43,131 bases of DNA from a virus. The notes beneath the pieces were generated by a model. The model did not search any database. It saw only the letters and a list, made by a program, of their open reading frames with translations, and had not been told where the DNA came from. Made by a program: the position numbers and the translations under genes. This document shows positions 7,363 through 23,491 of the stretch, piece by piece (position 1 is the stretch's first letter; the number at the start of each line of letters is the position of its first letter). Location: IMG/VR virus record IMGVR_UViG_3300031565_008220, positions 1-43,131 of that record, one strand, 5' to 3'.

Positions 7363-8193
7363 CTAAATATATGTAATTTCACTGAATCCACCTGGAACGC
7401 CTTTCCAATTGATAGCAATGGCATCTGACGTATGTATGGATTCTTCGTGTGTGCATTTCACGTACCAATCAACAACTCCTCTAAGTCTATCCAACTTGAT
7501 TGATATACTTCTTATAGAGTCCTCAACAAATTGTGGGTGCTTCTCTGCTTCTATAGCAATCCACGCTTCATCGGGCCTTTGAATTATTGGATATGGTTTC
7601 GTTACAACCGCTTCATCCACTAAATCTATAAGATCTTCTAACCATATAAATCGTTTTCGATTTGTTTGCACTAGAACATCTGCAAACGCTCTCTGGTTAT
7701 GTGGGTATCCTATACTTTGAGACGCACAGAGTTCAGCCGAACAAGGGCAGTATGCAGAATATTGAACTCTAACGTTTTCATAAAATTGAAAATATCCGTG
7801 AGAATAATCACTTCTAAAACTACACTTATAATACTGTGGGAATTCATTGTTTGTTATTGGAGATTTAACAACAACAGGAATTTTAAATTCGAATTTTATA
7901 GATACTTTTTGTGATTCGAGTTGTGTGCTAAGGTCTTTTAATATTTCTTCTATTGATATTCGTCTTAAAGCATAATTTAAATGTGGTCTCAATGTCCTAA
8001 TAAATCTGGACATTGAGATTCCCCTTTCGTTTTCGTCCAATTCACAAATCATGGTTGTCATTGCAAGAACGGATACAACACCCCCATTCCTTAAATTTAA
8101 CAGGAATGGGAGCTCCACATTTTGAACTCCCACTCTTGAAATTAAGATCGGAATTTCTGGTTTTGTTTTTTGAACGTCTGGTAATATATCCAT
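7363..8193 (-). CDS. folE2: GTP cyclohydrolase IB (FolE2)
   Basis: FolE2 opens the GTP ring to give 7,8-dihydroneopterin triphosphate, the entry to folate and 7-deazaguanine synthesis. The 276-residue length suits the family. Diagnostic features are the N-terminal IPILISRVGVQNVELPF, the GISMSRF segment (family: HMSRF), the metal-site CPCSAELCA around residue 150, and GYPHNQRAFADV just after it (family: AHNQRS). The start codon overlaps the stop of the beta subunit gene (TAATG), with GGGGGAAC upstream, so it is translated in the polymerase operon. QueD lies 20 kb away at 28170-28658, so a 7-deazaguanine role is more likely than folate synthesis. It has diverged in the HMSRF motif (GISMSRF), but the catalytic Cys motif is kept. 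Confidence 0.85.
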   Translation of the reverse strand: MDILPDVQKTKPEIPILISRVGVQNVELPFLLNLRNGGVVSVLAMTTMICELDENERGISMSRFIRTLRPHLNYALRRISIEEILKDLSTQLESQKVSIKFEFKIPVVVKSPITNNEFPQYYKCSFRSDYSHGYFQFYENVRVQYSAYCPCSAELCASQSIGYPHNQRAFADVLVQTNRKRFIWLEDLIDLVDEAVVTKPYPIIQRPDEAWIAIEAEKHPQFVEDSIRSISIKLDRLRGVVDWYVKCTHEESIHTSDAIAINWKGVPGGFSEITYI

Positions 8194-11100
8194 TAGTTCC
8201 CCCGATGATCCACACCCAAGACTGTCAAATACGAATTCAATAAACGAACTGATTCAGGTATTGGATCGACTATTTCAGTTTGAATTATATTCTTTGGATC
8301 GATCAGACCTTTTATATAATTATTTTTGGTTTCAAAACAGTCTGATTTTAATGTCAGCATTTCGTGTAGATTTTTCATTGCATCGTGACCGATGAAACAT
8401 GCCGTTTCCATTTCCCCACATCTCTGTCCACCTTTATTCCTTCTTCCACCAAGAGGCTGCATGGTTCGTTTTGCGTATGAGCCAATACCTCTAGCTGCCA
8501 TCTTATCATCAGCTATATGTGTCATTCTGAAAAAGTACATAAACCCAACAGCAATCTCTCCCGATACAACTTGTCCTGAAGGTGGGTCAAAGACTCTATA
8601 TTTAAATTGTGTCTCTGTATATTTTAGAGCTGATTTTAAATCCTCAACTTTAACGCTTTCAAACGGTGGTTGAATAACAGAAAATCCTTCGATGAAATCT
8701 TTATCTATCGTTTCTGGAAGCTGTTCTATAAATTGTTCAAGATACCATCCAGCTTCTGTTTTATCGATAATACGGATAAAATTGATAAAGTAGTTTCGAA
8801 TATCGTTCATTGGAACTTCTTCTTCCAACATCTTCAAAGCGTTATTTTTTAGATTATTGACAGCCATCCCCAAATGCAATTCAAATAACTGGCCTATATT
8901 CATTCTAGATATAATACCTAAAGGATTCAGGCAAATATCTATATGTCGACCATCATCCAATTGGGGCATTTTATTTTCTGGCATAATGGTTGATACAACA
9001 CCTTTATTACCATGACGGTTTCCAATTTTATCCCCAACTCTTATGGGTTTCATTTGGAGGCCGTGTAACTCTATTCGAATTCCATCAATCTTTTCTTTCT
9101 TAATTTTATATTTACCGATATCGTCAAACTGTAGATAATCCTTTACAAATTCACTGGAAACTTCCGGTGGTAATCTGTCCTCTACAATCTTTTTAAGCTT
9201 GTCCTGCTCAATTTTCTGTTTATCTAGAAACGATTCAAGCCACTCTCTAAATATTGGCATTTCCTCATTCCATTCATTTGCATATATATTTACATCAGTG
9301 ATTAGAACCCTGTTTGGAGTTTCCAAAATCGTTGGCTCATAAAAACCAGCAAACGGATCTTCAATTGTTAGTTTCTGCATTTTTGCATATATATCTCCAG
9401 GTTCTAACATTGTATTTGGAGTAGGTAATGGTTCGTATGCATTATGACGACCAAGGCGATCCATAAGAACTCGATCAGGTTTCAATGTGAAAGATAGATC
9501 AATAGAATGAACTGATGTTAATGAACCATCATTGAATAGCTTATCTGAAATAACAATCCCATCCTCATAATTATATCCGTAGTGAATCATGATTCCAGTT
9601 AGAAGATTTTTACCAAAAACGATATCCCCATCCTGGCAATAATTGCTTTCCGCTAGAATATCTCCAGCTTTAAACTTTTCACCCACTTTGAAATATACAG
9701 ACATTATATCGACGTTCTGAACATATATTCTTCTGTTGGAGATATCGAATATGTCTCCGCTCTCATCATCATATAATACAACCATATGTTTATCGTTGGC
9801 GTATAATACCTCACCGTTCTTTGGAGCTATCTTAATGAAATCTGAATATTTAGTATAAAGATGTTCGGAGCCAGATTGGATTAATGGCTTATCAAATTTC
9901 TTGAGCAAAATGGCCTGACGCATTTGAGCCGAAGCCATCTGTAATCTAGTTTGGTCGTCGTGTTCACAGAATGGGGTGAAAGCAACAGGTATAGAAATAG
10001 GCTGTTTTTCGCACACATCGTCCGTAAATCGCATGTTAGCATCCAATGGGACGTTAGGTATCAGATTTTGTAGAACACCGCAATTTTCCCTATCTGGCGT
10101 ATCAACAGGACACATCCTACCGAACATTGATGGATAGATATCTCGTAAGTGGCGAGGTATGTTTTCTCTTTTAAAACCACCTGGACCAAGCAAGCTTATT
10201 CTACTCAATTTTGTCAATTTATCAATTGGATTTATACTGAAGTCAAATTGTACAATGTCTGAAACATTGCTTGCTGTGATTAACTGCTTGGTGTTTGTAT
10301 TGAACTTTGGTTTTTTCGTTTCTCGATTACTCAAGCACATATCAAAAATTATTTTACACACATTGCTATAGATCACATATTCAAAACATCGAATCCTTTT
10401 ATTTTGCAATCGTGTGTCATCCACTTCACCCCTCTTTAAAGCCACCATAATATCTTCTAATACAGATCCTGTTTCTAAGAATTCTCTTGTAAAGATATCG
10501 ATTTTTGGGATAAGATCGAGAGAATAAATAATATCGTTTCCTTTTGGAATTGTATTATATTTCGTGTAACATCGTCCTAATTCTTGGATGAAATCGTCTT
10601 GTGTAAAACCAACTGATCCTTCAATATATGTTTTAAGATCAAATAATAATTTATCGTATACATTATCCCCTGGAACATTTTGTGTATTAATGGTTTCTAA
10701 ATCAGTTTTTATCATTTCAGGAAGATCTTCAATACTATAGAAGGCCAATATAATTAAAGCCAGTGAAACCTTCTTTCCCAAATAACCACAAATGACATGT
10801 GGACAGTCCTTGGTTGGATATACCAATATCGTCCCAACATTGGTTCGCATTTTTAACGTTTCCCCCCGCATTACGATGGGAACGTCGAATAGTTGGAATA
10901 GTGGAACTTTCTTTCTTCCATTAATATACAGGTAGTTATTATCTATAAGTTTTGGCACATAAAGTTTTAGTTCGATTACAGATGAGCCCTTCGAAAACTT
11001 CATTTGAAGAATGGAGTATAAAGTCTTCGAGAGCTCTCCTTTTATATTTCTAGAGCCTTTGATTTCAACTTTATCAATCGAAAACCCTATTTCTCTGACA

Positions 11101-11213
11101 GGCTGGACTATTTCCTGTATTACAGGTAACATTCTTCCATGATCTTTTTTTCTCAACGTAAAGATGTTGTTGTCTTCATCCTTAATCTTATAAGCTGGGT
11201 TTACTATTTTCAA
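8193..11213 (-). CDS. RNA polymerase beta subunit-like, set 1
   Basis: A 1006-residue homologue of bacterial RpoB (about 1340 residues), shortened mainly in the N-terminal lobe. Conserved blocks appear in order: YGYNYEDGIVIS (about 545), the active-site Lys region GDKIGNRHGNKGVVS (about 725), NPLGIISRMNIGQ (about 765), and the C-terminal clamp-binding segment GRRNKGGQRCGEME near residue 935. Initiation is at TTG (11213) with a strong GAGGAGG eight bases upstream; the next in-frame Met is 27 codons on, so TTG is preferred. It follows the set 1 beta-prime gene after 21 bases and precedes folE2, which overlaps its stop. The order beta-prime then beta is reversed from bacteria. Host-independent transcription of phage genes is the likely role. 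Confidence 0.92.
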   Translation of the reverse strand: MKIVNPAYKIKDEDNNIFTLRKKDHGRMLPVIQEIVQPVREIGFSIDKVEIKGSRNIKGELSKTLYSILQMKFSKGSSVIELKLYVPKLIDNNYLYINGRKKVPLFQLFDVPIVMRGETLKMRTNVGTILVYPTKDCPHVICGYLGKKVSLALIILAFYSIEDLPEMIKTDLETINTQNVPGDNVYDKLLFDLKTYIEGSVGFTQDDFIQELGRCYTKYNTIPKGNDIIYSLDLIPKIDIFTREFLETGSVLEDIMVALKRGEVDDTRLQNKRIRCFEYVIYSNVCKIIFDMCLSNRETKKPKFNTNTKQLITASNVSDIVQFDFSINPIDKLTKLSRISLLGPGGFKRENIPRHLRDIYPSMFGRMCPVDTPDRENCGVLQNLIPNVPLDANMRFTDDVCEKQPISIPVAFTPFCEHDDQTRLQMASAQMRQAILLKKFDKPLIQSGSEHLYTKYSDFIKIAPKNGEVLYANDKHMVVLYDDESGDIFDISNRRIYVQNVDIMSVYFKVGEKFKAGDILAESNYCQDGDIVFGKNLLTGIMIHYGYNYEDGIVISDKLFNDGSLTSVHSIDLSFTLKPDRVLMDRLGRHNAYEPLPTPNTMLEPGDIYAKMQKLTIEDPFAGFYEPTILETPNRVLITDVNIYANEWNEEMPIFREWLESFLDKQKIEQDKLKKIVEDRLPPEVSSEFVKDYLQFDDIGKYKIKKEKIDGIRIELHGLQMKPIRVGDKIGNRHGNKGVVSTIMPENKMPQLDDGRHIDICLNPLGIISRMNIGQLFELHLGMAVNNLKNNALKMLEEEVPMNDIRNYFINFIRIIDKTEAGWYLEQFIEQLPETIDKDFIEGFSVIQPPFESVKVEDLKSALKYTETQFKYRVFDPPSGQVVSGEIAVGFMYFFRMTHIADDKMAARGIGSYAKRTMQPLGGRRNKGGQRCGEMETACFIGHDAMKNLHEMLTLKSDCFETKNNYIKGLIDPKNIIQTEIVDPIPESVRLLNSYLTVLGVDHRGN

Positions 11214-11234: not shown

Positions 11235-13898
11235 TTAAACTTTGACTCCTCTTAATATTTTATCCATAACTCCAGAATAATTTCCAGAATTAATAATTCC
11301 ATTCAATATACTCTTTCTAGGATTGGAGAAAGACATTGCCAACATCCAACTTTCTTGATCTGGAACAGATTGGATACTGTGGAATTTTGGTTGGTATTTA
11401 TTTCTTTCTGAGTGCAATCTCCACTTTTGCATTCCAACCCACATCAATTGAGCTACAACACATTCATAATGAACATGATAAACATTTCTATCATAGACTT
11501 CAAATAAATCATGCACCAAATCCGTGCATTCTCTATCTTTAAATTTATGTAACATTGCCGATACCGTTGCCAAATCACCAATAATATCTTCTTGTTTCAT
11601 ATCTTTCTTATCTGCACCGTCTTTAATTATAGCTGCGCCAGACGTATGAAATGTTCGTAAAACAAGCTGTGTTGATTTTTCACCAAGTGTTTGTGCTGCA
11701 ATGATACCAATATATGTGCTGTTCAGGGTTTTGTGGGAATCCCCATAACAGGTTTTACATACCCGTGGGTTACTGCAATATATTGGACTTCTTACTTTTA
11801 CAGTTTTACCTACAATTTCATTATAATTATCTCTTGTGATGACATGTAATCCATCATCATGTTTCATATAACGATTTACAAGACATGATGCTTTTTTAGC
11901 ACTTGTCACCTCAATTTCGAGTAAATCATTAGTTCCACAATCATCAATATCGTTTGAGAGTTGTAGGTTAGCACATGTAAATATTAATTTTCTTGATAAA
12001 TATCCAGAGGTTCCGGTGTTCAAGGCTGTATCTAACAATCCCTTACGACATCCATATGTGGAGTCGAAGAATTCCTCTTCTGTCAACCCATCAGTCAAAT
12101 TATTAACAATCGGTCTCTTATGAATCTCACCTTTAAAGTTTGATATATATCCACGAGACAAACATAACTGTCGTGCTTGATCCCAGGTACCACGAGCACC
12201 AGATTCGATTAGATATGCATAATTAAAATTATCTCTTAGAAATTGTATAACGTCTTCTGAACTAGATCTTCTCAGTGATTCATATATATCATCTGTCTCA
12301 TAAATATGACGTTTAACTTCATCGGCTTCTGGTATTAAAAAGTCGTCCAACGACAACGTACAACCGGAAAGTGTGGAATAATAAAATCCCATTTTCTTAA
12401 TATTATCAAGCAGTTCTACTAATTTGTCTGGATGTTTTTCTCGTACTATATCTAAGATATGTAGAAGTCTTTTTGAATTTATAGTACCTTTCACTTCTTC
12501 AAAGCCATCTGGTAAGATATCATTAAATGCTTTTACCCCATTGAATGTATCGGTATCGAATCTTCCAGCTGTCAGAAAATATACTCCAAGCACAATATCC
12601 TGGCTTGGTAGTGTTGTTAATTCCTCATTGGCAGGACTAATCAAATTTTTGGTTACGAACATTTTATCTTTAACTTCTTGTATGGCTTCTTCTGATAGTG
12701 GAATATACATAGCCATCTGATCACCATCAAAGTCTGCGTTAAACGGATGACAAATCAATGGGTGGATCTTTATAACTGAATCTTTAGAAACCTTTATGTT
12801 AAAACCTAACATACCCAAACGATGAAGTGAGGGTTGTCGGTTGAGTATACAAACTTTATCTTTTATGATTTCCTCACATACAGTCAATAAGCTTAAATGA
12901 TTATACTTAATACACTTATTGATGTAATTCAATGCAGTTGGGAGTTTCTTAAATCTACCTAATCCTATTATTCTCTTTGCTATCTGCAACTTGTAAATTT
13001 CCAATATCATTTTATATGGAAGAACACATTCATCTAAAGATAAGGATGGTTCAGGTACGATAACTGCTCGACCAGAGAAATCAATTCTTTTCCCAAGAAT
13101 ATTCCCTCTTATTAATCCTTCTTTTTTAGCAAGTTTTTCTAATATCTTTTCGTGTAATTCTTTTACGTCTTTTTGTAAGTTTCGGAAAAAGGTGTAGTAG
13201 ATGCTCTTATCCCGCATAACATCTAAATGTGCAGCTTGCATCACTTCCTTTTTTGTAAGAATTTGTATGTAATATCGATTGATTTTATCCATCAATTGTT
13301 TTGATCCACTTTGAGTTGATGGTCGTAAATCTGGTGGGAGAACAATGATTTCACGAATTAGAAAATTATCTATATTTTCAACTATCTTCCTCCAATTATC
13401 ATCTTGCAAATCTTCGTACATCATTTCACTGAAGTTTTTCACAAGAATGTAAATCGCTTCTGCCCTCTCATACTTCGTTGCTGTTCTGGGAATTTTTTCA
13501 TCATCATGAACAACAAACGTTTCATCACCTATTACATATAGGATACTCTTCTCATTTTTCATCAAATCGTCCAGAGGAGCTTTAATCTTCTTTCCTCCTA
13601 AAGATGCGATTAGATCATACATTAGTGGGTTAACTACTGGAATTGGCAGGACAATTTTTGCAAATCGTTTTCTCCGTTCATTACTGTTAACAATATCAAC
13701 TCCACAGGCTTCGCACTCACCACCAGATTTGGATATTCCATAATACGTTCCGCATTGACACGTATAGTTTTTAAGTGGCCCAAAAATCTGTTCTGAGAAG
13801 AGACCTTTAGCATGGAAAAATCTCTTTTTAAATACTTTAACTGAACTAATTGGTGCAAGTTCTTCACAAAATTTATTATAATTTAAAATGTTTGGCAT
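11235..13898 (-). CDS. RNA polymerase beta-prime subunit-like, set 1 (unsplit)
   Basis: An 887-residue, apparently complete compact RpoC homologue (E. coli 1407). The catalytic loop NADFDGDQMAM lies near residues 386-396. The N-terminal zinc ribbon has Cys47, Cys49, Cys62 and Cys65, the same C-x-C-x12-C-x2-C spacing as E. coli. The second zinc site is also present: DDCGTND and CSNPRVCKTCYGD. The bridge-helix region (SGARGTWDQARQL) and trigger-loop region (AAQTLGEKSTQ, then RTFHTSGAA) follow. The C-terminal end matches RpoC: VHYECVVAQLMWV and MAMSFSNPRKSILN then KILRGVKV. GGAGGT precedes the ATG. The gene is not split, unlike those of phiKZ/AR9-like phages. It directly follows the ubiquitin-like cassette. 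Confidence 0.95.
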   Translation of the reverse strand: MPNILNYNKFCEELAPISSVKVFKKRFFHAKGLFSEQIFGPLKNYTCQCGTYYGISKSGGECEACGVDIVNSNERRKRFAKIVLPIPVVNPLMYDLIASLGGKKIKAPLDDLMKNEKSILYVIGDETFVVHDDEKIPRTATKYERAEAIYILVKNFSEMMYEDLQDDNWRKIVENIDNFLIREIIVLPPDLRPSTQSGSKQLMDKINRYYIQILTKKEVMQAAHLDVMRDKSIYYTFFRNLQKDVKELHEKILEKLAKKEGLIRGNILGKRIDFSGRAVIVPEPSLSLDECVLPYKMILEIYKLQIAKRIIGLGRFKKLPTALNYINKCIKYNHLSLLTVCEEIIKDKVCILNRQPSLHRLGMLGFNIKVSKDSVIKIHPLICHPFNADFDGDQMAMYIPLSEEAIQEVKDKMFVTKNLISPANEELTTLPSQDIVLGVYFLTAGRFDTDTFNGVKAFNDILPDGFEEVKGTINSKRLLHILDIVREKHPDKLVELLDNIKKMGFYYSTLSGCTLSLDDFLIPEADEVKRHIYETDDIYESLRRSSSEDVIQFLRDNFNYAYLIESGARGTWDQARQLCLSRGYISNFKGEIHKRPIVNNLTDGLTEEEFFDSTYGCRKGLLDTALNTGTSGYLSRKLIFTCANLQLSNDIDDCGTNDLLEIEVTSAKKASCLVNRYMKHDDGLHVITRDNYNEIVGKTVKVRSPIYCSNPRVCKTCYGDSHKTLNSTYIGIIAAQTLGEKSTQLVLRTFHTSGAAIIKDGADKKDMKQEDIIGDLATVSAMLHKFKDRECTDLVHDLFEVYDRNVYHVHYECVVAQLMWVGMQKWRLHSERNKYQPKFHSIQSVPDQESWMLAMSFSNPRKSILNGIINSGNYSGVMDKILRGVKV

Positions 13899-13911: not shown

Positions 13912-14325
13912 TTATTTTTCTAATACACAACAAGAATCTGGAACGCTGAAACAATCATCCTGATTATACCTCAAAATACAACATATCAGTAGTGCTATAA
14001 GTCCTTTACTTATTGGCTTCCCCTCAAATTTTCCTAAACATAGACAGCTATTTCTAGGATCTTTATGTGGATGCCGTTGGTCATTTCCAAGATATAACAT
14101 TTCAAGAGTACCTTCAATGCTAGAAATTATTTGGAAATTAGTTATCAAATATTCATCATTCAATTTAACAGGATATAAATTTCCTTTTGAAAGTAAGAAT
14201 ATTGGTTTAAGCGAACATTTGAATTTATATTTTATTTTACGGGTAGATCTAACTACCCAAGATCGATCAAACTTTACCCACCCTTCTTCGGATATTATAT
14301 CAATGCCATCTAATTTATTTGGCAT
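13912..14325 (-). CDS. E2-like conjugating-enzyme candidate (137 aa)
   Basis: A small protein with the signature of an E2 core: a beta-meander (KIKYKFKCSL, PIFLLSKGNLYPV, DEYLITNFQI) followed by RHPHKDPRNSCLCLGKFEGK at residues 84-103 and a helix (GLIALLICCILRYNQ). Eukaryotic and bacterial E2 folds have HPN/HPH, a short gap, then the catalytic Cys in a CL(G) context; Cys94 or Cys96 would be the catalytic residue. The C-terminal tail is Cys-rich (DDCFSVPDSCCV). The start codon overlaps the stop of the second E1-like gene (TAATG), and the RNA polymerase beta-prime gene starts 13 bases after its stop. The assignment rests on the motif and on context; a structural model would settle it. Confidence 0.6.
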   Translation of the reverse strand: MPNKLDGIDIISEEGWVKFDRSWVVRSTRKIKYKFKCSLKPIFLLSKGNLYPVKLNDEYLITNFQIISSIEGTLEMLYLGNDQRHPHKDPRNSCLCLGKFEGKPISKGLIALLICCILRYNQDDCFSVPDSCCVLEK

Positions 14326-15137
14326 TACGCCCCACCATCCAAGGTTGGGTAACAGATTTCAATGAATCTATTTTTCTTATCGATAAAATATGTTCCATTA
14401 TCTCTTAAAACAACATCATTTAAAGCTGTTATAACTGCTGGGTATTGCATTAATGATGGTTCAAAAGTTAATATTCCCTTTTGATCATCCAGTTTACATA
14501 ATCTTGTTCGAACGAATCCTCTTGGGTCGCTTATATCTTTGATTTCATTGAAAATATGACTACTGATATCTCTTTGTAATAATGGTTTGGTTTTCTGTTT
14601 GATATGGAATTTCATTTCACTGTCAACAGATTTTGTAGATATGGGAAGATTGATTGATGATTTATCATCCTGTAATTCTTTTATTCTTTCTGATAACAAA
14701 ACTTTTGAAGCCAGATGTGCCGCTTTGGACACTTCTTGTTTACTTAATTCAATGAGGTAATTTCCAGGTTCATCAGTTGTCATAGATGGTTCTTCACAGT
14801 CCACTCTCAAATTTCTACCTACAATTAAAAATTTCACATCCGTTCTTATATTTCTATTAACAATATCTCTACAATCTATGAAATTGTTAACAGAGGGGAG
14901 GTCAATGTCTTCGAATCTCGCTTTTACTGGAACGAGATCGCATTTTGTAATTTTACTTTTCAGTGCATAAACTTTTGGTTTATTTATATCTAATTTATGG
15001 TAGATTGAGTTTCTTAAATTTTTCTCTTCTACACTATCTGGGTCTATCACGTACATGGTATCAACGTGGCTTTGAATTTGATTTGCAAGAAAGCCACCAA
15101 GAGAACCAACCCCAACAAGACCAATTGTGTTTCTCAT
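14325..15137 (-). CDS. E1-like ThiF-family protein, second copy
   Basis: A 270-residue adenylating-enzyme fold protein. The Rossmann nucleotide loop is GLVGVGSLGG at residues 6-15, followed by the strand-end acid YVIDPDSVEEKNLRNS (residues 29-44, with the ENxxR-like Asn/Arg pair) and NKPKVYALKSKI. FIDCRDIVNRNIR near 86-98 occupies the place of the catalytic Asp/Arg segment. The catalytic Cys is not obvious. It differs much from the other E1-like protein at 15862-16623. It ends PTLDGGA, a Gly-Gly pair one residue from the C-terminus, which may be chance. AAAGGAGAA precedes the ATG. It may act on the ubiquitin-like protein encoded just upstream, as a second activating enzyme or as a non-catalytic partner. 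Confidence 0.75.
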   Translation of the reverse strand: MRNTIGLVGVGSLGGFLANQIQSHVDTMYVIDPDSVEEKNLRNSIYHKLDINKPKVYALKSKITKCDLVPVKARFEDIDLPSVNNFIDCRDIVNRNIRTDVKFLIVGRNLRVDCEEPSMTTDEPGNYLIELSKQEVSKAAHLASKVLLSERIKELQDDKSSINLPISTKSVDSEMKFHIKQKTKPLLQRDISSHIFNEIKDISDPRGFVRTRLCKLDDQKGILTFEPSLMQYPAVITALNDVVLRDNGTYFIDKKNRFIEICYPTLDGGA

Positions 15138-15173
15138 TTACATGAATTCTCCTTTCTTTAGAGGTGAGTTGAT

Positions 15174-15195
15174 GTGGGGGACGTGAATCCCCCAC
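15174..15195 (-). other. Intergenic hairpin (GTGGGGG stem)
   Basis: A perfect 7-bp stem, GTGGGGG/CCCCCAC, with an eight-base loop stands in the 83-bp gap between the ubiquitin-like gene and the second E1-like gene. No U-run follows on the minus strand, so it is not a standard intrinsic terminator. It may stabilise the abundant upstream mRNA or attenuate downstream expression. It shares its stem with hairpins at 4788-4825, 17957-17977 and 31235-31277. Confidence 0.7.
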
Positions 15196-15220
15196 GGTAA
15201 TTGACAACACTCGCTAATCT

Positions 15221-15856
15221 TTAGCCTTTATCATAAGCCTCGTTAACGAATTCGATTACATCATTTTCCTTGATGATATAATCATTGGTAACCTCATCAC
15301 CATTGACAAGAACGATACGAGCGTAAGGATTAACGTTGAGAACCTGCCCCAACATTTTTTCCACTTCGTAAATGCTCTTACCAACAACAGGATAGTTATT
15401 GGTCATGCTACCGGCAGAGACGGTAACGGTGACGTTCGAAACGTTGGGACCGTTCGATATAATACCACTAAACAGCATATGAGTGATCTCTGTGTCAATC
15501 AACTTGCTTTTGGTACCAGTTGGATTTCCCATACCATCAGCCATTCCATTTGCATCAGGCTCAGGAGTAACTTCGGTCCAGTCATCATCGGCAGTCTCAG
15601 TCTCGATGAAATCATCGGGATCCAGATCATTGAAATCACTGAAATCACTGAAATCATCAACAGAATCAGAGGCATCTTCGAAAGAAGCCTGTCCGGTTGA
15701 CATGAAATAATTCCACAGAGCCTGAATCAGAAAAGGCTTTTGTTTTTTACTCATACCGATAAATTCGGGATTTTCTCTTCCCAGTTCGACAACCATACGA
15801 CGAAGATTATCCACGCTTGTTTCATTAATTTGGGTCCAGGTGTATTTTGTTTCCAT
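15221..15856 (-). CDS. Ubiquitin-like (ThiS/MoaD beta-grasp) protein with N-terminal extension
   Basis: A 211-residue protein in three parts. Residues 10-52 form a helix-loop-helix segment (NLRRMVVELGREN, KKQKPFLIQALWNYF) reminiscent of SAP/HeH-type modules. Residues 58-100 are a highly acidic linker with DDFSDFSDFNDLDPDDF. Residues 140-211 form a beta-grasp domain: VTVTVSAGS, the helix SIYEVEKMLGQVL, then ARIVLVNGDEV and KENDVIEFVNEAYDKG, matching the ThiS/MoaD order. The C-terminus is an exposed Gly after Lys (DKG), so no proteolytic maturation is needed. Codon choice differs from neighbours (more ATC, CGT, AAC, GAG), as expected of a strongly expressed gene. GAAGGAGAA precedes the ATG. It lies between two E1-like genes. 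Confidence 0.8.
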   Translation of the reverse strand: METKYTWTQINETSVDNLRRMVVELGRENPEFIGMSKKQKPFLIQALWNYFMSTGQASFEDASDSVDDFSDFSDFNDLDPDDFIETETADDDWTEVTPEPDANGMADGMGNPTGTKSKLIDTEITHMLFSGIISNGPNVSNVTVTVSAGSMTNNYPVVGKSIYEVEKMLGQVLNVNPYARIVLVNGDEVTNDYIIKENDVIEFVNEAYDKG

Positions 15857-15861
15857 AGTAA

Positions 15862-16623
15862 TTATTCTCCTTCAGTTTTGTTTTTTGGTTTTCTTAGGTA
15901 CGACTCACACTTAAGTGTTTCGATATTGAAATAGGCTTCGCCTACCGGATTATTATAATCGATTTTTCCTACCAACAAATTGTAGTACGCACATCCCATT
16001 AATACCGCTACCATAGCGTTGGTGAACAACAGCTGTGGCAATGACTCCTGCAACTCCTCACATGACTTCTCATACGGAGCTTTATCTTGGGGATCTCCAA
16101 TCTCGGGGTGATAACGACACAGATCAGCAGTTACTGATACACCTCCCTTTTGCTGAAATATTTGCACGTTTCCAACCGTGATATCATTCCCTCCTGAAAT
16201 CAATATAATATTATCTAATGTTTCGCAATGTTTTGATACTATAGATCTTGACTTATGATTATCCACACATAGAAATATCGTGTCCTCATCCAAGATCAAA
16301 TCTTTGATATTGTCTTCTGTTACATATTCATCTATATAATTCAAAACAAATTTGTCCAATACATATCCAGATGGAACGTATCTATTATATTCATCTTGAA
16401 GTTCCAGGGATTTAATTCTAGCCTTATTTCCAAGATTCTGAAAATTTTGTCTTGGACGATTTAAAGAATCGTATGAATCACCATCAATACAGGTTATGGT
16501 AATTTTTTTATTTTGGAGCATTGTGAATCTAGCATATTTAGCGATGATAGGCAATAGCCAAGATCCGATTCCTCCAAGCCCAATAATTTTAATGTTTATT
16601 TCATTCGTTTCAATTTTTATCAT
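15862..16623 (-). CDS. E1-like ThiF-family activating enzyme
   Basis: A 253-residue protein that should adenylate the C-terminal Gly of the ubiquitin-like protein encoded five bases downstream. It has the nucleotide loop IIGLGGIGSW (residues 13-22), the acid IDGDSYD with the NRPRQNF arginine segment (residues 46-61), and LCVDNHKSR at 118-126, the conserved Asp/Arg region of E1-like enzymes. EKSCEELQESLPQLLFTNAM follows, with Cys188 as the probable thioester or persulfide Cys. The SC...LPQ..F.N pattern recalls the ThiF protein of the PRTRC gene set as I remember it. The gene starts a few bases after the JAB stop and has only a weak ribosome-binding site, so coupling to the upstream gene is likely. 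Confidence 0.87.
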   Translation of the reverse strand: MIKIETNEINIKIIGLGGIGSWLLPIIAKYARFTMLQNKKITITCIDGDSYDSLNRPRQNFQNLGNKARIKSLELQDEYNRYVPSGYVLDKFVLNYIDEYVTEDNIKDLILDEDTIFLCVDNHKSRSIVSKHCETLDNIILISGGNDITVGNVQIFQQKGGVSVTADLCRYHPEIGDPQDKAPYEKSCEELQESLPQLLFTNAMVAVLMGCAYYNLLVGKIDYNNPVGEAYFNIETLKCESYLRKPKNKTEGE

Positions 16624-16627
16624 ATGA

Positions 16628-17938
16628 TTACCAAGTATAACGCGATTTCTTGTGAGATTTTAGAACACCCTCACGGGTTAATGATGGTTGAAGACCTTCG
16701 TTCCATTTCTCACATGATGGACATAGAGTCTTTACTGTGGAATCTGGAACAAAGTATGTGGATTCACACTTCTGACATTTTATATATTTCTTTATTAGTT
16801 TATCTTTATATGTTGCAAATAATTTAGGTGTGATTTTATTATTTGTTCTTTTTACACCATCTTCATCTACCTCTCCTTCTTTAAATAATGTCGTTTTAGG
16901 CAACTCATCTCCAACAGGATCATCCTGACGAAAACCTTCAAATAGAGATCGATCATTTTCATCAAAAATATCAGTGATCCCATCATCGGTGGTTAACGGA
17001 TAAGAATCATCAACTTCATCTTCAAACATTGTAGTCATTTCATCGAACAGTGATTCCACTCGATCCTCTTTAAATATGCATTCGGCACATGGAGGTTTTT
17101 CATCCACAGGATCTTCACTCCAATCCCATAGATAACCTTTATTAGGCCCATCCGAATCCCATAGATAACCTTTATTAGCTCCACCCATATCCCAAAATGC
17201 CCGTTGGACTTCTGATGGTGTTTTTCGAGTGTACGTTGCTTCGATGAATTTCAAATTATCTCGATTTTCAACAATTAAATCTTTATGTACAAAGTTATAG
17301 CGTTTTGTTTGTTCTAATAATCGAAGTGGAGATGGTGATTGAGGTGGTTCTTCATATTTGATTCCCTCTATGTAATGTAGTGGGTCTACGGAAATTCTCT
17401 TTCCGTTAACGACAATACATACTGAAATAGAAGGTCTATCCGTATCAACATGACCGATAGTAATATGAAGACCATCGAAAAATCTTTCATCGTTTTCGTC
17501 AGTACCTGAATGAAAAGCTCCAAAATCACAATGACTATGAATCGTTCCACAATTTATATAATTTGGATTAATGACGATTTCATATTTACAACGACTGCCG
17601 CTAACACGCTGATGAGGAAGTGTGTAGTCAATCTTTTTTAAAGTGGGTTTTTCTGGATGTGACTTCAAATTCATAATAACACCACACTCACTTCTGTGTT
17701 CAGCATACACCATTTTGAAAAGTCCCAGGACTTTACCAATTATATTTGGTTTAATCTTCGGGAGATTCATCGTAGCATATTCACCGATTTCCTCACCCAT
17801 ACCGATATGATCAACTTTAACAAGAGAATCAACTAAACCCGTTCTCTTTTTTAAATATATATACTTCGAGATAATATAACACACATCATCATCTGGAAGA
17901 ACTTCTGGCATTTTTTCAAAGTAATAAACTGGAAACAT
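16628..17938 (-). CDS. JAMM/JAB isopeptidase with C-terminal zinc ribbon
   Basis: A 436-residue protein. The JAB domain (about residues 60-195) has Glu84 in SECGVIMN and an exact JAMM motif, H134-S-H136, seven residues, S144, two residues, D147 (HSHCDFGAFHSGTD), so it should be an active zinc isopeptidase removing or processing the ubiquitin-like protein. Residues 250-272 carry a tandem repeat of NKGYLWD, then an acidic linker (300-360), and a zinc ribbon with Cys388, Cys391, Cys406 and Cys409 near the C-terminus. Order and content resemble PRTRC protein A followed by ThiF. AAGGGAGT precedes the ATG. Since the partner already ends in Gly, deconjugation is a likelier job than maturation. Confidence 0.9.
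   Translation of the reverse strand: MFPVYYFEKMPEVLPDDDVCYIISKYIYLKKRTGLVDSLVKVDHIGMGEEIGEYATMNLPKIKPNIIGKVLGLFKMVYAEHRSECGVIMNLKSHPEKPTLKKIDYTLPHQRVSGSRCKYEIVINPNYINCGTIHSHCDFGAFHSGTDENDERFFDGLHITIGHVDTDRPSISVCIVVNGKRISVDPLHYIEGIKYEEPPQSPSPLRLLEQTKRYNFVHKDLIVENRDNLKFIEATYTRKTPSEVQRAFWDMGGANKGYLWDSDGPNKGYLWDWSEDPVDEKPPCAECIFKEDRVESLFDEMTTMFEDEVDDSYPLTTDDGITDIFDENDRSLFEGFRQDDPVGDELPKTTLFKEGEVDEDGVKRTNNKITPKLFATYKDKLIKKYIKCQKCESTYFVPDSTVKTLCPSCEKWNEGLQPSLTREGVLKSHKKSRYTW
17122..17178 (-). repeat. In-frame 33-bp tandem repeat in the JAB gene
   Basis: A perfect 24-bp direct repeat occurs at 17122-17145 and 17155-17178, a 33-bp period, so it encodes two 11-residue units starting NKGYLWD. A preceding FWDMGGA may be a decayed third unit. 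Aromatic-acidic short repeats of this kind often act as binding peptides. The exact DNA match points to a recent duplication. Confidence 0.85.
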
Positions 17939-17956
17939 AATTACTCCCTTGGTTGT

Positions 17957-17977
17957 GGTGGGAGATATTCTCCCACC
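17957..17977 (-). other. Intergenic hairpin (perfect 9-bp GGTGGGAGA stem)
   Basis: A perfect inverted repeat, GGTGGGAGA/TCTCCCACC with a three-base loop, lies in the 80-bp gap between the 1220-residue protein and the JAB gene, 18 bases before the JAB start. No U-run follows on the minus strand. It could mark an RNA-processing or attenuation point at the head of the JAB-E1-UBL genes. Confidence 0.75.
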
Positions 17978-18018
17978 TGATTTTTGGTTATTCTTCTCCT
18001 ATTGAGCTGGAGGAGCTG

Positions 18019-21000
18019 TCAGAAGAGGATACTTAAATCACGAAACAATTCTACAGGTTCGGTTTCTATTTTAGGAAAAATATCATCACTAACAATACAA
18101 TGACATACCTCATTATTATATTTTCCTTTTCGTAACTTATCTGAAGATAAGCTATTATAAAATATGTTCTGAGGTCCAATAAACTCAAAGCACTTAAATG
18201 ATTTTGATTTATTGGTGTCTTTTTTCAATACTCTTGGTGTTGGAAATGATAATAATGATGCTGTTATATTTTCTCTTTTATATGCCTTATCAGAACTTAT
18301 AGCTCTGAATGGTGAACTCCAATATGAATATCCTGTCAATGGACCACTTAAGCATTTATCCAAAGTCATGTACGCAGAACCATTAGTTAGAGATCGATTA
18401 GTCTGTGCATAACATACATCATACATTTTAAAACCACAAACTACGCTAGCTGGTTGTTGTATGGATGTGAAATCACCACCTATCACTCTATTATCATCAT
18501 ATTGCATTTTGAATGATCTTGATTCTGCTATCGGTTTTATCATTGCTGTACTATTTATAATCTTTCCGAAGTATGTTTCAAAACAGTGATCTCCATTTTC
18601 AACCTTTAATGCATTGAAGGCCTCTAGTGTAATATGATCTAGTGTTTGCGTGGACGAATATATTTCAAATAAATTATGTCTATAATATTCCGAATCTTCC
18701 CATGCGACCGTAAGTTGTGGTGTATTCTTGGTGAATATTGGAACGTTTACTTGATATTGAATTCGATCACCGTAGAGTACCATAAAATCACACATAAATT
18801 CTTCCCTAGTTTTTCCATCATAGTATTCTATTTTGGTAGCAGATAGTTTATCCTTTTTAAATATTTTGAAATCGGATTCTATTATATCGCTCCACATTGT
18901 CATTCCGTTTTTAAGGATTGTGAGATTTCTATTATTTACTTCAACGGTTCCAACAATCTGATCAACAGTACTCTTTGTGAAATATGGAATTTTACCAACG
19001 TTGGCTTTTATATAATCACCAACTTTTAGATTTCCAACTTCTTCTTTTGCATGTGCTATCCCATTTATAAAATGAACTCCTGTACTAGATATCATTGGCT
19101 GGAAAATTAAGTTGTCACATTTTGGATCATGAACTACAGCAAACAATACTGCTCGTTTAAACGTCGGCCCGTAATCATTTGGTCTCTCTCGCTGTGCAGC
19201 TGAAAATTCTGTATGAGCATTCATATACATTTTATATTGTTCAGTAGAATTTGATCTATCTATACCCCCCAAAATATCCGAACCAACTTGTGACGGTATT
19301 TGAATCGATCCAGCCCTGTCCGTGAGAATGATAAAATCGTGTATCGTTTTAATTGATGGAGCTTCTTTTGATTGAGGGTTCCAATCGGAAGTCAACATAA
19401 CTTTATCACCAACCTTAAATGTTATATATTCTTTTTCAGAATTACATTCGAATAAATCTCTTATTTTAAACGTTTTAACACCATCCACATCTACCAGACA
19501 AGTTTTTATATGTTCGTCTGTTGGGAGAAGAAGACAACCCTTAAGTGTGTTAGGATTCTGATCAGTAAAAGCTGCTATTGTGACTTTTCCATTCTCATCT
19601 TTGATGATTTTAAATGGTGCTACCAGTTTATTATCTCTTCCATATGGTAGTGGACATCCAGTATAAACATGCTCTCCCATAGTAACAACTTCACCTGGAT
19701 TGAGCTCTGGAATAATTTCTGTAAAACCATCACAAGAACGATCAATATATTCTGGAAGGCTGACAAGTACTTTACAATCATTCTTATTAACCTTGATCAC
19801 ACATGCGGTTAAATCATTTGAAGAATAAGAGTCTGCTGAGTTATAACCCTCTTTTCTAATCTGAAAATTTAACATTATAAAATGTTGCGGTTTAGATTTA
19901 TATCCCCCCCCATAGCGTGGCGTAGGGTTTTCTTTATAGGCTATATCCACAACACGAATTGTTGCATCAATCTTTTCACCTAGATATGTTTTTATAGTGA
20001 ATGGCCACGGACCTGAATTATTGTTAAGACGTCTGTTCGTTCTGTAGGTAAATGCTTCTCCATCCTTTAACATACTTGTTGAAGAACTCGAGCTGGAACT
20101 TGCTGGTTCAATTTCTCCAGATGTAAACAAAATTTCCACTTTAGACATACTAAGTGGAGTAATATCCTTTTTGAAGTTTATATTATTATCACGCTTACAG
20201 AATTCAATTAAATAACTATCCCCATTGTTTCTGATACTTTGGATTATATCAAGATCTGGTTTGGCTTCTCGATTAGAATCCAAAAAGATCGCAATCAACT
20301 CTCCAGATTTGAAAGTCACACCTGGAAATATAGCTTCCTTTTCATAATTTTTGGCTTTTCTAAAAGCGTCTAATATAAATTGTGTTGTCTTTTCTGTCAA
20401 TGGAAATCGAAATCGTCTTTTCTTTTCATCAATAATTTTCACATGGGTAACCATAATATCATCTTCAATCAAAGTATTTCCATCGATCCTAAAGCTTTTA
20501 TATCCATCAAATGATAGAAGTTTAAACCTTTTCTTGTTGTGTTTTAAAATCGACCCAACCCCTACTTCAATTCCATCACTTATTACTATACTATCGCAAA
20601 TTTCTGTAATATTCTTTTTTGCAGTACCGTTTTCAAGCTCTACCTGTGCAGAACCACTAAAATGTGTTTCGGTTTCGAAACCCTTTAATACATTGTTTTG
20701 ATTAACTAAATATATAGATTCTATAAACATTTTTTTTCCTTTACTAGTACTAGGTCTATATGAATCATCATAAATATATTGAGCAACACTCAGTTTTTTC
20801 TCAGTTATGTTACTATTAAATTTTAAATCCAATATAGCTGCTGGATTAACATATGAAATATATTCCCATTCAAACCAATTTCCAAGGAAGTTTTGATCAC
20901 CATACATTTCTGGTCCAGTCGTTATATCAGCATTAAATCTATTGTTCCAGAAATAACCAGTCATTTTTTCAATATATGATTTAAGATCAATAATTCCATA

Positions 21001-21681
21001 TTCCCCGAGATGCAGATTTCCCGTGCACACAACCCCATTACCGCCAACATTTGATAATGGAAATTGATATACATAATCATTTAAAGATTGAATTGGGTTG
21101 AGTGTTACAGCTGATGACATACTGTGAAATTTAAGACCGCTATCATTTCTCTTTATAACTATTAGAATATAGGTATATGGAAAATATACCCTAAAGAACA
21201 ATTTATACATATATTGGCCAAAGCTCTTTAATTTTTGCTGTTCAATATATTTATTTCTCATAGCAATCTGTTTCTGAATTTTTTCTTGCTCTTCAGCTTC
21301 AACTGAATTCAATTCTAAAACTCTTGTTTGAGCGTTAAACTTAGATTGCATTTTACCAACTAGCTTGTAAACAGCCTCTGTTGAAGATAAACGAAATGCT
21401 CTGACGCCAGGATGTACCTGAATTAAATATGCTTCTTCTCCATTGGTTCGCACTCCACGATATATACATCCATTTGGTAAGATCATATCACTATAACTAT
21501 TCAAAACATTTGTATTGAGTTGATTGAATAGACTATTAAATGATCGTTTACGAACCTGTTTTGCGCCATCATCATCATCATATACAAGTGTGGCAATTTC
21601 ATCAGAATATTTCAAGATAACAACCTTTGGCTCAATTAAACATGAGTCGAAATTGTAATGACCACTAATTTCTGAATTCAT
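18019..21681 (-). CDS. Large protein with N-terminal E2-like (Prok-E2_D/PRTRC-B-like) segment
   Basis: A 1220-residue protein. Residues about 20-280 match the pattern I recall for PRTRC protein B / Prok-E2_D: a strand-rich start, RVYFPYTYILIVI (164-176), then NGVVCTGNLHLG with Cys219 as the likely catalytic Cys, then IEKMTGYFWNNRFNADI (237-253) and NFLGNWFEWE. Residues 128-150 form a charged helix (EEQEKIQKQIAMRNKYIEQ). The remaining 900 residues are beta-rich with several VGDxIxx/VGSILKH-type small-barrel segments and a serine run (SSSSSSSTS, near residue 535); I do not recognise them. AAGGAAAA precedes the ATG. It heads the cassette E2-JAB-E1-UBL. It could also be a structural protein; the E2 relation is by motif only. 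Confidence 0.55.
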   Translation of the reverse strand: MNSEISGHYNFDSCLIEPKVVILKYSDEIATLVYDDDDGAKQVRKRSFNSLFNQLNTNVLNSYSDMILPNGCIYRGVRTNGEEAYLIQVHPGVRAFRLSSTEAVYKLVGKMQSKFNAQTRVLELNSVEAEEQEKIQKQIAMRNKYIEQQKLKSFGQYMYKLFFRVYFPYTYILIVIKRNDSGLKFHSMSSAVTLNPIQSLNDYVYQFPLSNVGGNGVVCTGNLHLGEYGIIDLKSYIEKMTGYFWNNRFNADITTGPEMYGDQNFLGNWFEWEYISYVNPAAILDLKFNSNITEKKLSVAQYIYDDSYRPSTSKGKKMFIESIYLVNQNNVLKGFETETHFSGSAQVELENGTAKKNITEICDSIVISDGIEVGVGSILKHNKKRFKLLSFDGYKSFRIDGNTLIEDDIMVTHVKIIDEKKRRFRFPLTEKTTQFILDAFRKAKNYEKEAIFPGVTFKSGELIAIFLDSNREAKPDLDIIQSIRNNGDSYLIEFCKRDNNINFKKDITPLSMSKVEILFTSGEIEPASSSSSSSTSMLKDGEAFTYRTNRRLNNNSGPWPFTIKTYLGEKIDATIRVVDIAYKENPTPRYGGGYKSKPQHFIMLNFQIRKEGYNSADSYSSNDLTACVIKVNKNDCKVLVSLPEYIDRSCDGFTEIIPELNPGEVVTMGEHVYTGCPLPYGRDNKLVAPFKIIKDENGKVTIAAFTDQNPNTLKGCLLLPTDEHIKTCLVDVDGVKTFKIRDLFECNSEKEYITFKVGDKVMLTSDWNPQSKEAPSIKTIHDFIILTDRAGSIQIPSQVGSDILGGIDRSNSTEQYKMYMNAHTEFSAAQRERPNDYGPTFKRAVLFAVVHDPKCDNLIFQPMISSTGVHFINGIAHAKEEVGNLKVGDYIKANVGKIPYFTKSTVDQIVGTVEVNNRNLTILKNGMTMWSDIIESDFKIFKKDKLSATKIEYYDGKTREEFMCDFMVLYGDRIQYQVNVPIFTKNTPQLTVAWEDSEYYRHNLFEIYSSTQTLDHITLEAFNALKVENGDHCFETYFGKIINSTAMIKPIAESRSFKMQYDDNRVIGGDFTSIQQPASVVCGFKMYDVCYAQTNRSLTNGSAYMTLDKCLSGPLTGYSYWSSPFRAISSDKAYKRENITASLLSFPTPRVLKKDTNKSKSFKCFEFIGPQNIFYNSLSSDKLRKGKYNNEVCHCIVSDDIFPKIETEPVELFRDLSILF

Positions 21682-21693
21682 GATTTTTCCTTT

Positions 21694-22125
21694 TTATGTT
21701 AAAGGTTTGATAGCCCGTTTACCAAGATAATGTTTGTATATCTTGGCGAACGATGTCACGATATGGTTTGGTTTTGTTGCCTCTATGTCATGACGCTTCT
21801 TTAATTTATTTTGGCCCACTCCACCAAAATCAACATAATACGCAACCGACCATCCGGTTAGTGGGTCATTCTCTAATGTTAAATATGAAACTTCTTTGGG
21901 GTGTTTTATATGAGGAATTGACAGAGTTAAGTATACCACAGCTCCTTTAGGTCCATTAAGACGCATCTTTTGCAATTCGATATCAGAGTATTTATCATCT
22001 TCTTCTTTCTGTATTTTCATACACAACTCATTTATAATAATTGCATCATCGTCCCGCTGTCTAATTCCTGGATCACCCTTAATTTCTTCTATGACTTTCT
22101 GTAGGATTGTTGATGATATGATCAT
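21694..22125 (-). CDS. Hypothetical protein
   Basis: A 143-residue protein of unknown function. The N-terminal half is helical and charged (VIEEIKGDPGIRQRDDDA, KIQKEEDDKYSDIELQKMR); the middle is strand-rich (GAVVYLTLSIPHIKH, DPLTGWSVAYYVDFGG) and the tail is basic. It begins inside the last codons of the preceding gene (4-base overlap), with AAAGGAAAA upstream, so the two are co-translated. It directly precedes the 1220-residue protein, 12 bases on, and may belong to the ubiquitin-like cassette, but nothing in the sequence shows this. Confidence 0.5.
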   Translation of the reverse strand: MIISSTILQKVIEEIKGDPGIRQRDDDAIIINELCMKIQKEEDDKYSDIELQKMRLNGPKGAVVYLTLSIPHIKHPKEVSYLTLENDPLTGWSVAYYVDFGGVGQNKLKKRHDIEATKPNHIVTSFAKIYKHYLGKRAIKPLT

Positions 22126-22466
22126 TTCTTTTTCCTTTTCGTTACTGGAATATTAATCTTCATTCTTTCGGGTACTTTTCTATTCTCGGAAAATTCAACC
22201 CAATCAGCAGTTTCGAAAGGAACTGAACGCCAACCCATCTTATCCAGGTCATACACATGAATGATTCCTTGTTCGTTCATTCGTTTCATTATCTGTACAA
22301 GATCTACTTTTTTCGGATGATCTTTCTTTGGTATCTTGGAGAAGTCCAAAGTAAATCTCATTATTCTAATTGTTCCATCTTTTTTGACAAACTTTACAGT
22401 AGCTTCCCGTTCGTCATAAATTTTCTGCCAAAATTCTAATGCAGTTGTTATAGTGTCTTTTGCCAT
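22122..22466 (-). CDS. DUF2693-like small SH3-type protein
   Basis: A 114-residue protein. VKFVKKDGTIRIMRFTLDFSKIP followed later by IIHVYDLDKMGWRSVPFETADW matches the layout of small phage proteins (DUF2693) that read 'TKxDGTxRxMxCTLxxxxIP ... xVWDxExxxWRSFxxDxV'. These proteins are common in T4-like and other phages and are thought to have an SH3-like barrel; their role is not known. The C-terminus is strongly basic (VTKRKKK). A strong AGGAGG lies a few bases before the ATG. Its stop overlaps the start of the next gene by four bases. Confidence 0.5.
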   Translation of the reverse strand: MAKDTITTALEFWQKIYDEREATVKFVKKDGTIRIMRFTLDFSKIPKKDHPKKVDLVQIMKRMNEQGIIHVYDLDKMGWRSVPFETADWVEFSENRKVPERMKINIPVTKRKKK

Positions 22467-22477
22467 GCATAGCCTCC

Positions 22478-23491
22478 TTAGTGATCTAAAATTTTATTTG
22501 AACTTCCTTCGCGGTATTCGATATAATTACTCATCATAACACAAGTATGATTACACCCTTGACACCAATAATATCTATCATATTCCATACAATGAAATAT
22601 AAAAGGATTCAAATAATATTCAGAATTAACATTTATTAAGAATAAATTTTTATCATTTATATGATTCGGCATCATGTTGCCTCTAATTCTGAGACATGTT
22701 CGAACCTTACCGTCTGAATCTATTGTCAGGTTGTGTATTGTTTTCTCATTCTCACAATTATAATCGGATGATATATATCGAAAAAGCATTGGTAATACTT
22801 CATCTTTCATATGAATCAAAAGCGTTTCATCAGCCATAATATTCCAATATAACTCTTTCGATTTTCTAGACTCTTTTATCAAACGACATGTTGCTGAGTA
22901 AGCTGAAAAATCATATAGATAATTTTTATTTATATCAAGTGCTGTCAAGCTCGTGTAAATTCCACCACTGGATAACATTTTAATAAGATCATATGTCTTA
23001 TCGAGAGTATCCTTGGTCATGGTAACTTCTGCGACAACATCATCCACATAATTTTTCATTTGCATAAGAAATCCAAATGCAGCAGAACTTTTCAATTGAG
23101 TATGACTATCAGTTGGTTCTTGTAACATTACTGGATCAACAGAGCCAGTAAATCCCCTAAAACCCCCGACCTCATCCATAACCCTAAGAATTTTAGGTTG
23201 AATGTCGGGGGTGCAATTAGAGATTATTGTGTAATATATATCATTCTCATTACAGAATTTAAGTATATCACTGAGGTCCCCCCTCAGAAATGGTTCACCC
23301 CCATAAAATATGTGAAATATATCGGGGTTGTATGTTTTAAATTTATTTAATAATGTTATAACTCTTTCTGCTGGAATTTCATTCTTTTTATAATGGGATA
23401 TGCGCTCTTCACCCCGTACTTTAACAATTCCGCAATAGTCGCACCTTAAATTACATCTACGAGTTAATATCCAATTTACGATTCTAACCAT
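22478..23491 (-). CDS. Radical SAM enzyme with SPASM/twitch-like C-terminus
   Basis: A 337-residue radical S-adenosylmethionine enzyme. CNLRCDYC at residues 13-20 is the CxxxCxxC site for the 4Fe-4S cluster, and FYGGEP near 62-67 is the SAM-contact motif. The C-terminal third has further Cys residues: CENE, VRTCLRIRG, FHCMEYDRYYWCQGCNHTC, which look like an auxiliary cluster region (SPASM/twitch). That tail and the length argue against QueE, which is about 220 residues and lacks extra clusters. Such enzymes often modify peptides or proteins, but the substrate cannot be read from the sequence. It lies between the Rad50-like gene and the small DUF2693-like gene. Confidence 0.8.
   Translation of the reverse strand: MVRIVNWILTRRCNLRCDYCGIVKVRGEERISHYKKNEIPAERVITLLNKFKTYNPDIFHIFYGGEPFLRGDLSDILKFCNENDIYYTIISNCTPDIQPKILRVMDEVGGFRGFTGSVDPVMLQEPTDSHTQLKSSAAFGFLMQMKNYVDDVVAEVTMTKDTLDKTYDLIKMLSSGGIYTSLTALDINKNYLYDFSAYSATCRLIKESRKSKELYWNIMADETLLIHMKDEVLPMLFRYISSDYNCENEKTIHNLTIDSDGKVRTCLRIRGNMMPNHINDKNLFLINVNSEYYLNPFIFHCMEYDRYYWCQGCNHTCVMMSNYIEYREGSSNKILDH

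Follow-up and report, generated by a model that had tools for sequence, protein, structure and literature searches.

Ubiquitin-like gene sets in bacteria and phages

Most of what is known of ubiquitin-like conjugation in prokaryotes comes from bacterial defence and from operons on plasmids. The genes of PRTRC operons follow the order B-A-ThiF-C. Gene sets of the type 6d operons are predicted to act as ubiquitin-transfer systems in bacteria (Iyer et al., 2006; PMC1779556). Bacteria also attach ubiquitin-like proteins (Ubls) or CD-NTases in anti-phage defence (PMC10097602; Hor et al., 2024, as cited in PMC12660748). ThiF and JAB are not named in a survey of 224 jumbo-phage genomes (PMC7824862). 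No description of a phage Ubl cassette was found in the open-licence literature; prior description elsewhere is not excluded.

The window, the 43,131-base virus fragment analysed here, carries a cassette richer than any bacterial set found described. In transcription order on the minus strand, positions 13,912-22,125 encode f9, E2D, JAMM, E1a, Ubl, E1b and E2b, followed by RNA polymerase beta' and then beta. The cassette probably encodes a reversible ubiquitin-like conjugation system, one that belongs to the core of a large tailed phage lineage and is passed on vertically within it; its enzymatic steps are inferred, without biochemistry. Ubiquitin-like conjugation, which the original prediction had read from the sequence of the locus alone, remains the best reading and is supported by the invariant Ubl tail and the gene order described below. 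In this phage lineage such conjugation would belong stably to the core, and it would involve a candidate split E1 together with two E2s, as is otherwise usual in eukaryotes.

The closest likeness is to PRTRC and type 6d operons, which likewise hold a C-terminal-Gly Ubl, a JAB protein, an E1 (ThiF) and an E2-like protein within a single operon (PMC1779556). The type 6d criterion of a small beta-grasp protein with a C-terminal Gly beside JAB and E1 genes is fulfilled, with an N-terminal Rho_N/SAP-like region in addition. The phage order E2D-JAMM-E1a-Ubl corresponds to B-A-ThiF-C, but the phage cassette adds E1b, E2b and f9, forms a core phage locus, and has an E2D that is three to four times longer and lacks the downstream His. 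Proteins of phage relatives are matched by the PRTRC A, B, C and ThiF families, and PRTRC_C exceeds its cut-off in Bacillus phage KLEB27-3 (61 versus 45.95 bits). The window does not reach the curated NCBIfam PRTRC cut-offs for ThiF (30.9 versus 144.75 bits) or A (20.1 versus 101.8 bits) and has no match to B or C. In 19 records neither PRTRC ParB nor PRTRC E reaches its cut-off, and the window and its 80-kb twin lack even a weaker match. The PRTRC-like order suggested earlier therefore holds for the first four genes, but with scores below the cut-offs and ParB and E absent, the cassette is not PRTRC proper.

Other comparisons are more distant. Short cassettes in KLEB27-3, Salmonella phage Arash and Vibrio phage D69 have homologous E2D, JAMM and E1 genes, but lack E1b and E2b, have a short E2D, and do not lie beside RNA polymerase genes. 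KLEB27-3 has a Ubl too, but the gene lies upstream and encodes a tandem poly-Ubl. Type II CBASS (Cap2/Cap3), Bil and Bub systems share E1, E2 and JAB-type parts, and the E1b profile matches Cap2 and BubCD, yet the phage parts are separate, phage-borne genes of other families without a CD-NTase. The split eukaryotic E1s SAE1/UBA2 and NAE1/UBA3 also pair a complete adenylation domain with a degenerate ThiF-fold partner in separate proteins. This is a functional analogy only: E1a lacks a separate catalytic-Cys or ubiquitin-fold domain, and a phage dimer has not been shown. No description of the additions E1b, E2b, f9 and long E2D was found in the open-licence literature.

Conservation and inheritance of the cassette

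The six adjacent, co-directional open reading frames first predicted are all present, with hardly any gaps between them, and their order and strand are repeated across a phage family. A search profile built from an alignment of JAMM proteins (window plus phage relatives) matched at least 114 viral sites, whereas a scan of IMG/VR with the window E1a as a single protein found no relative. Profiles of the six proteins, run on 94 loci to score gene order, place E2D-JAMM-E1a-Ubl-E1b-E2b in one direction in 42 non-redundant viral loci (39 complete, three cut at contig ends). A further 28 loci carry simpler versions, some of them with a second E2D gene; most are arranged as Ubl-E2D-JAMM-E1 or E2D-JAMM-E1. 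Cultured phages have only the short form, and the E1 matched just six of 50,697 records. The cassette is far beyond chance, because order and strand recur in 42 loci and conservation falls on the motif residues.

The extended set sits in a fixed block of SbcD, SbcC, radical SAM, WYL_2, f9, the cassette, and RNA polymerase beta' and beta. The two polymerase genes always adjoin it, and the genes from SbcD to f9 usually precede it. Beta' (11,235-13,898, minus strand; tblastn to phage RNA polymerase beta') lies directly downstream in 42/42 loci, and beta (8,193-11,213, minus strand; Pfam RNA_pol_Rpb2_6, 7.5e-53) is kept in all 42 by synteny.

An 80-kb contig represents the same virus as the window (100% beta' identity), and two more close relatives were found via beta' (84%) and via the Ubl (67%). 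In the two nearest relatives TerL is about 79% identical to the window terminase. Of 15 contigs tested from the wider lineage, 13 have a match at 53-65% identity, and on this basis the cassette carriers form one lineage of large tailed phages. The term jumbo phage, applied to the locus at first, rests on these relatives, whose contigs reach 312 kb; the window itself is only a 43-kb fragment. Pairwise distances of every cassette protein track those of RNA polymerase beta' (Mantel r 0.55-0.84, p 0.001), which means that cassette and core are inherited together. A scan of 84,980 species genomes with E1b matched a single contig, which has the whole phage block and is assigned to a Thermoplasmatales metagenome bin; it is probably mis-binned, and an archaeal host is not ruled out. 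In another phage group (L055, L066, L069 and L051, one contig being 527 kb), two tandem E2D genes precede JAMM-E1-Ubl.

With RNA polymerase distances removed, co-evolution is strongest between E1b and E2b (0.66), E2D and JAMM (0.62), E2D and Ubl (0.60), and E1b and f9 (0.56). This pattern, with which the E1 tree agrees, suggests that E1b, E2b and f9 may be a unit added onto a PRTRC-like core. In most of 37 loci the f9 gene (21,694-22,125, minus strand; 143 aa, unknown fold) directly precedes E2D, and f9 also co-varies with E2b (partial r 0.45). Synteny and co-evolution make f9 the likely seventh gene of the cassette.

The ubiquitin-like protein and its isopeptidase

The Ubl (15,221-15,856, minus strand; 211 aa) comprises an N-terminal Rho_N/SAP-like region (~15,701-15,844), an acidic linker and a C-terminal beta-grasp domain (~15,224-15,475). 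As first noted, it ends in Gly (...YDKG). The terminal Lys-Gly is invariant across 52/52 aligned Ubls, and the loss of the C-terminal Gly in homologues that would have refuted the prediction was not seen. Family matches among the 52 are to TGS (26), ThiS (18) and Rho_N (32). The window Ubl by itself has no family match at the same threshold, and searched alone against ThiS it reaches only E=0.08. One to five residues follow the Lys-Gly in 16 of the 42 extended-locus Ubls. Twelve of the 42 end Lys-Gly-Cys, a recurring lone Cys (e.g. L007, L018, L020, L025). In KLEB27-3 (L003:718-1425), the poly-Ubl is a chain of four PRTRC_C domains in tandem, every one of which ends near VKAGVKG. A practical warning follows from the tail: trypsin digestion of a Lys-Gly Ubl leaves a single Gly (57 Da) behind, and the tag would go unseen in standard diGly proteomics.

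The JAMM isopeptidase (16,628-17,938, minus strand; 436 aa) carries H134-S-H136-x7-S144-x2-D147, bearing out the claim that all metal ligands are present, and the HxH-x7-S-x2-D site is kept in 42/42 loci. The protein matches PRTRC_A with E 3.8e-4. A C-terminal CxxC...CxxC zinc-ribbon-like end is found in the window and several relatives.

A complete and a degenerate E1-like protein

Both proposed E1-like proteins exceed the Pfam ThiF cut-off of 28.1 bits (E1a 48.2, E1b 32.7), but the second is degenerate. E1a (15,862-16,623, minus strand; 253 aa) also matches PRTRC_ThiF (E 1.7e-7). Its GxGGxG and adenylation-Arg motif NxxRQ are present in 42/42 loci, GNK and VDN are conserved, and the crossover Cys motif is found in 40/42. 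The adenylation residues of MoeB are Gly41, Arg73, Lys86 and Asp130 (PMC12355090). E1a has equivalents of the Gly41 loop and of the other three (R58, K67 and D121), together with crossover Cys188. By these motif residues E1a is predicted to be a catalytically complete E1-like enzyme; its activity is inferred.

E1b (14,325-15,137, minus strand; 270 aa) has NxxRQ in 0/42 loci. Asn43 stands at the position of MoeB Arg73, which has no counterpart in the E1b profile alignment, and the crossover Cys is missing; the Gly loop, Lys55 and DCRD are retained. MoeB is the best solved relative of the E1b profile (2.3e-14), and ThiF, Cap2, UBA3, UBA1 and BubCD are also matched. PADLOC gives E1b just a weak match, to the ThiF portion of E1-E2 defence proteins. 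With the adenylation Arg lost in all 42 loci and no crossover Cys, E1b, a ThiF-fold protein by homology, is probably a non-active E1-like partner (pseudo-E1). In the E1 tree E1b forms a separate monophyletic clade (support 100/100), which rules out a recent copy of E1a; E1a nests among the E1s of short phage cassettes, beside those with two E2Ds.

The E1b protein ends in GAA or GGA in 38/42 loci (window 14,325-14,336). A Shine-Dalgarno by-product of the overlapping E2b start does not readily explain this ending, which is also kept in loci that give E2b a separate Shine-Dalgarno.

Two E2-like candidates

The small protein E2b (13,912-14,325, minus strand; 137 aa) is a candidate E2 of HPN/HPH type. 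Its HPH...CLCLG motif is present as described at the outset, with HPH at ~14,065-14,073. By alignment the second Cys, Cys96 (~14,038-14,040), is the conserved one and the catalytic candidate. His85 and Cys96 are invariant in 41/41 homologues, in a family whose mean identity is 17% and whose only other invariant is P41; I52, P86 and N87 are nearly so. Four of these six conserved residues are the E2 active-site H, P, N and C, in the correct order. The loop reads HPN in 37 of the 41, HPH in the window and L007, and HVN and HCN in one each. The nearest relative, L090, has HPN, and human UBE2W has HPH like the window. The HPN usually stands eight residues before the Cys, a spacing shared by PEX4 and UBE2U. 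Five loci (L022, L023, L030, L050, L061) have an insertion between HPN and Cys.

Structural support is weaker. The AlphaFold model of E2b (pLDDT 93) has a beta meander, the HPH loop, the Cys and one helix; Foldseek of this model against PDB and BFVD gave no significant match, solved E2s included. A profile search of 177,635 PDB sequences placed two E2 enzymes at the top, aligned at HPN...C, with E-values of 0.18 and 0.97. An hhalign comparison with three human E2s gave P 0.0014 over 43 columns at a probability of only 17%, and PF00179 was not detected over 40 phage records. E2b is probably a minimal E2, judged from its sequence motifs, with the UBC fold unproven; the motif of the proposed second E2 is conserved, but a significant match to a solved E2 is lacking.

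E2D (18,019-21,681, minus strand; 1220 aa) has an E2-like domain (residues ~12-332; ~20,686-21,648) followed by a long beta-rich extension. The window E2D alone matches Prok-E2_D weakly (E=0.023), the family profile gives E=7.6e-52, and 31/39 homologues match Prok-E2_D (best 1.2e-6). Asn211 and Cys219 are present in 39/39, eight residues apart, which is the Asn-to-Cys spacing of the E2 HPN motif. No conserved His lies near Cys219 among the 39 homologues, including the downstream His said to mark type 6d E2s. The AlphaFold model of the E2D homologue in L044 (pLDDT 84) shows an alpha+beta N-terminal domain, then the beta-rich extension. Its top Foldseek matches are chains of RNA polymerase II complexes, which we take to be Spt5, with the SETDB1 Tudor domain lower and low TM-scores throughout. 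From this model, an SH3/KOW/Tudor-like type for the extension is plausible, not established. No E2 appears among the matches listed for the model, a search dominated by the extension and beta-rich repeat proteins. The E2-like segment first proposed in the large protein is thus supported by the family profile and the conserved Asn and Cys, but not by a structural match. The fold comparison meant to confirm both candidates did not do so, and because it gave no significant E2 match the E2 folds of E2b and E2D are not structurally proven.

Proposed pathway and alternatives

The Ubl would be made ending in Lys-Gly, the JAMM protease trimming any extra residues. E1a would adenylate the Ubl Gly and then bind the Ubl to its own Cys by a thioester bond; E1b would be the inactive E1-like partner, an arrangement known from split eukaryotic E1s. 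From E1a the thioester would pass to the Cys of E2b (HPN...C), docked through E1b, and/or to that of E2D, whose tandem SH3/KOW/Tudor-like extension may hold the target. The Ubl would be joined to a target amine, and JAMM would take it off. Each of these steps is inferred only, as are the target and its binding by the E2D extension. With low confidence, RNA polymerase adjacency, the Rho_N/SAP-like Ubl region and the KOW/Tudor-like E2D extension point to the transcription machinery as the target. The fuller proposal, in which a heterodimeric E1 (E1a plus pseudo-E1 E1b) and two E2s tag phage or host RNA polymerase by way of the Rho_N/SAP Ubl and an Spt5-like KOW/Tudor E2, is speculative and rather unlikely as it stands. 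Three questions become testable: do phages tag proteins in the course of infection, did split E1s also originate in viruses of prokaryotes, and what does such a tag do next to an RNA polymerase?

Other functions have to be weighed against the same evidence. The Ubl might be attached to a structural protein or processed onto one, making the cassette a virion assembly factor and an elaborated form of the lambda TAPI/TAPK-like arrangement. Lambdoid tail assembly does include JAB and Ubl (PMC1779556), and the E1 and E2D of Arash are annotated 'structural protein' on an unknown basis; in the extended lineage, however, the neighbours of the cassette are genes for transcription and DNA functions rather than for tails, and virion assembly is an unlikely role. 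Counter-defence, in which the phage JAMM, Ubl and E1 set undoes or blocks host Ubl-based immunity (CBASS Cap2/Cap3, Bil), can draw on the attachment of Ubls or CD-NTases by bacteria against phages (PMC10097602; Hor et al., 2024, as cited in PMC12660748) and on the match of the E1b profile to Cap2. Such genes are usually patchy, whereas the cassette is a core, vertically inherited block, its JAMM never occurs in the loci without its own E1, and there is no E1-E2 fusion or CD-NTase, all of which leaves counter-defence quite improbable.

A sulfur-carrier or small-molecule pathway, with a ThiS/MoaD-like Ubl activated by the E1s for thio-modification or cofactor synthesis, seems the hardest to sustain. 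The Ubl and E1 families do fall within the ThiS/ThiF/MoeB superfamilies, and radical SAM and FolE2 genes share the block, but no rhodanese or cysteine desulfurase was found among the neighbours searched. A JAMM and a pair of E2-like proteins with a conserved Cys are never missing, and the Ubl has a single Gly after Lys rather than GG, with many tails needing proteolysis. Reversible conjugation remains the preferred reading.

Conserved neighbours

A WYL_2 (Sm-like SH3 barrel) protein is encoded at 22,122-22,466 (minus strand; Pfam PF10902, 1.8e-8). It occurs in 37 loci, with almost no co-evolution with cassette genes and none with the E2 and Ubl genes; its membership of the cassette is not shown. 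The block also includes a FolE2 GTP cyclohydrolase (window 7,363-8,193; 7.5e-62), perhaps for 7-deazaguanine modification of DNA or tRNA. At 38,424-42,491 the window encodes a second RNA polymerase-like protein (1355 aa; matches to PHROG RNA polymerase beta subunit), separate from the beta and beta' that adjoin the cassette. The radical SAM protein (22,478-23,491, minus strand; Pfam Radical_SAM 8.9e-11, weak SPASM) is a syntenic neighbour in 39 loci. Small proteins often encoded upstream of its gene start M-K-x-K-x-D-F-[VI]-[TA]-N-S-S-S (L014:1633-2886, L018:4636-5016, L020:272-613) and are possibly its substrates.
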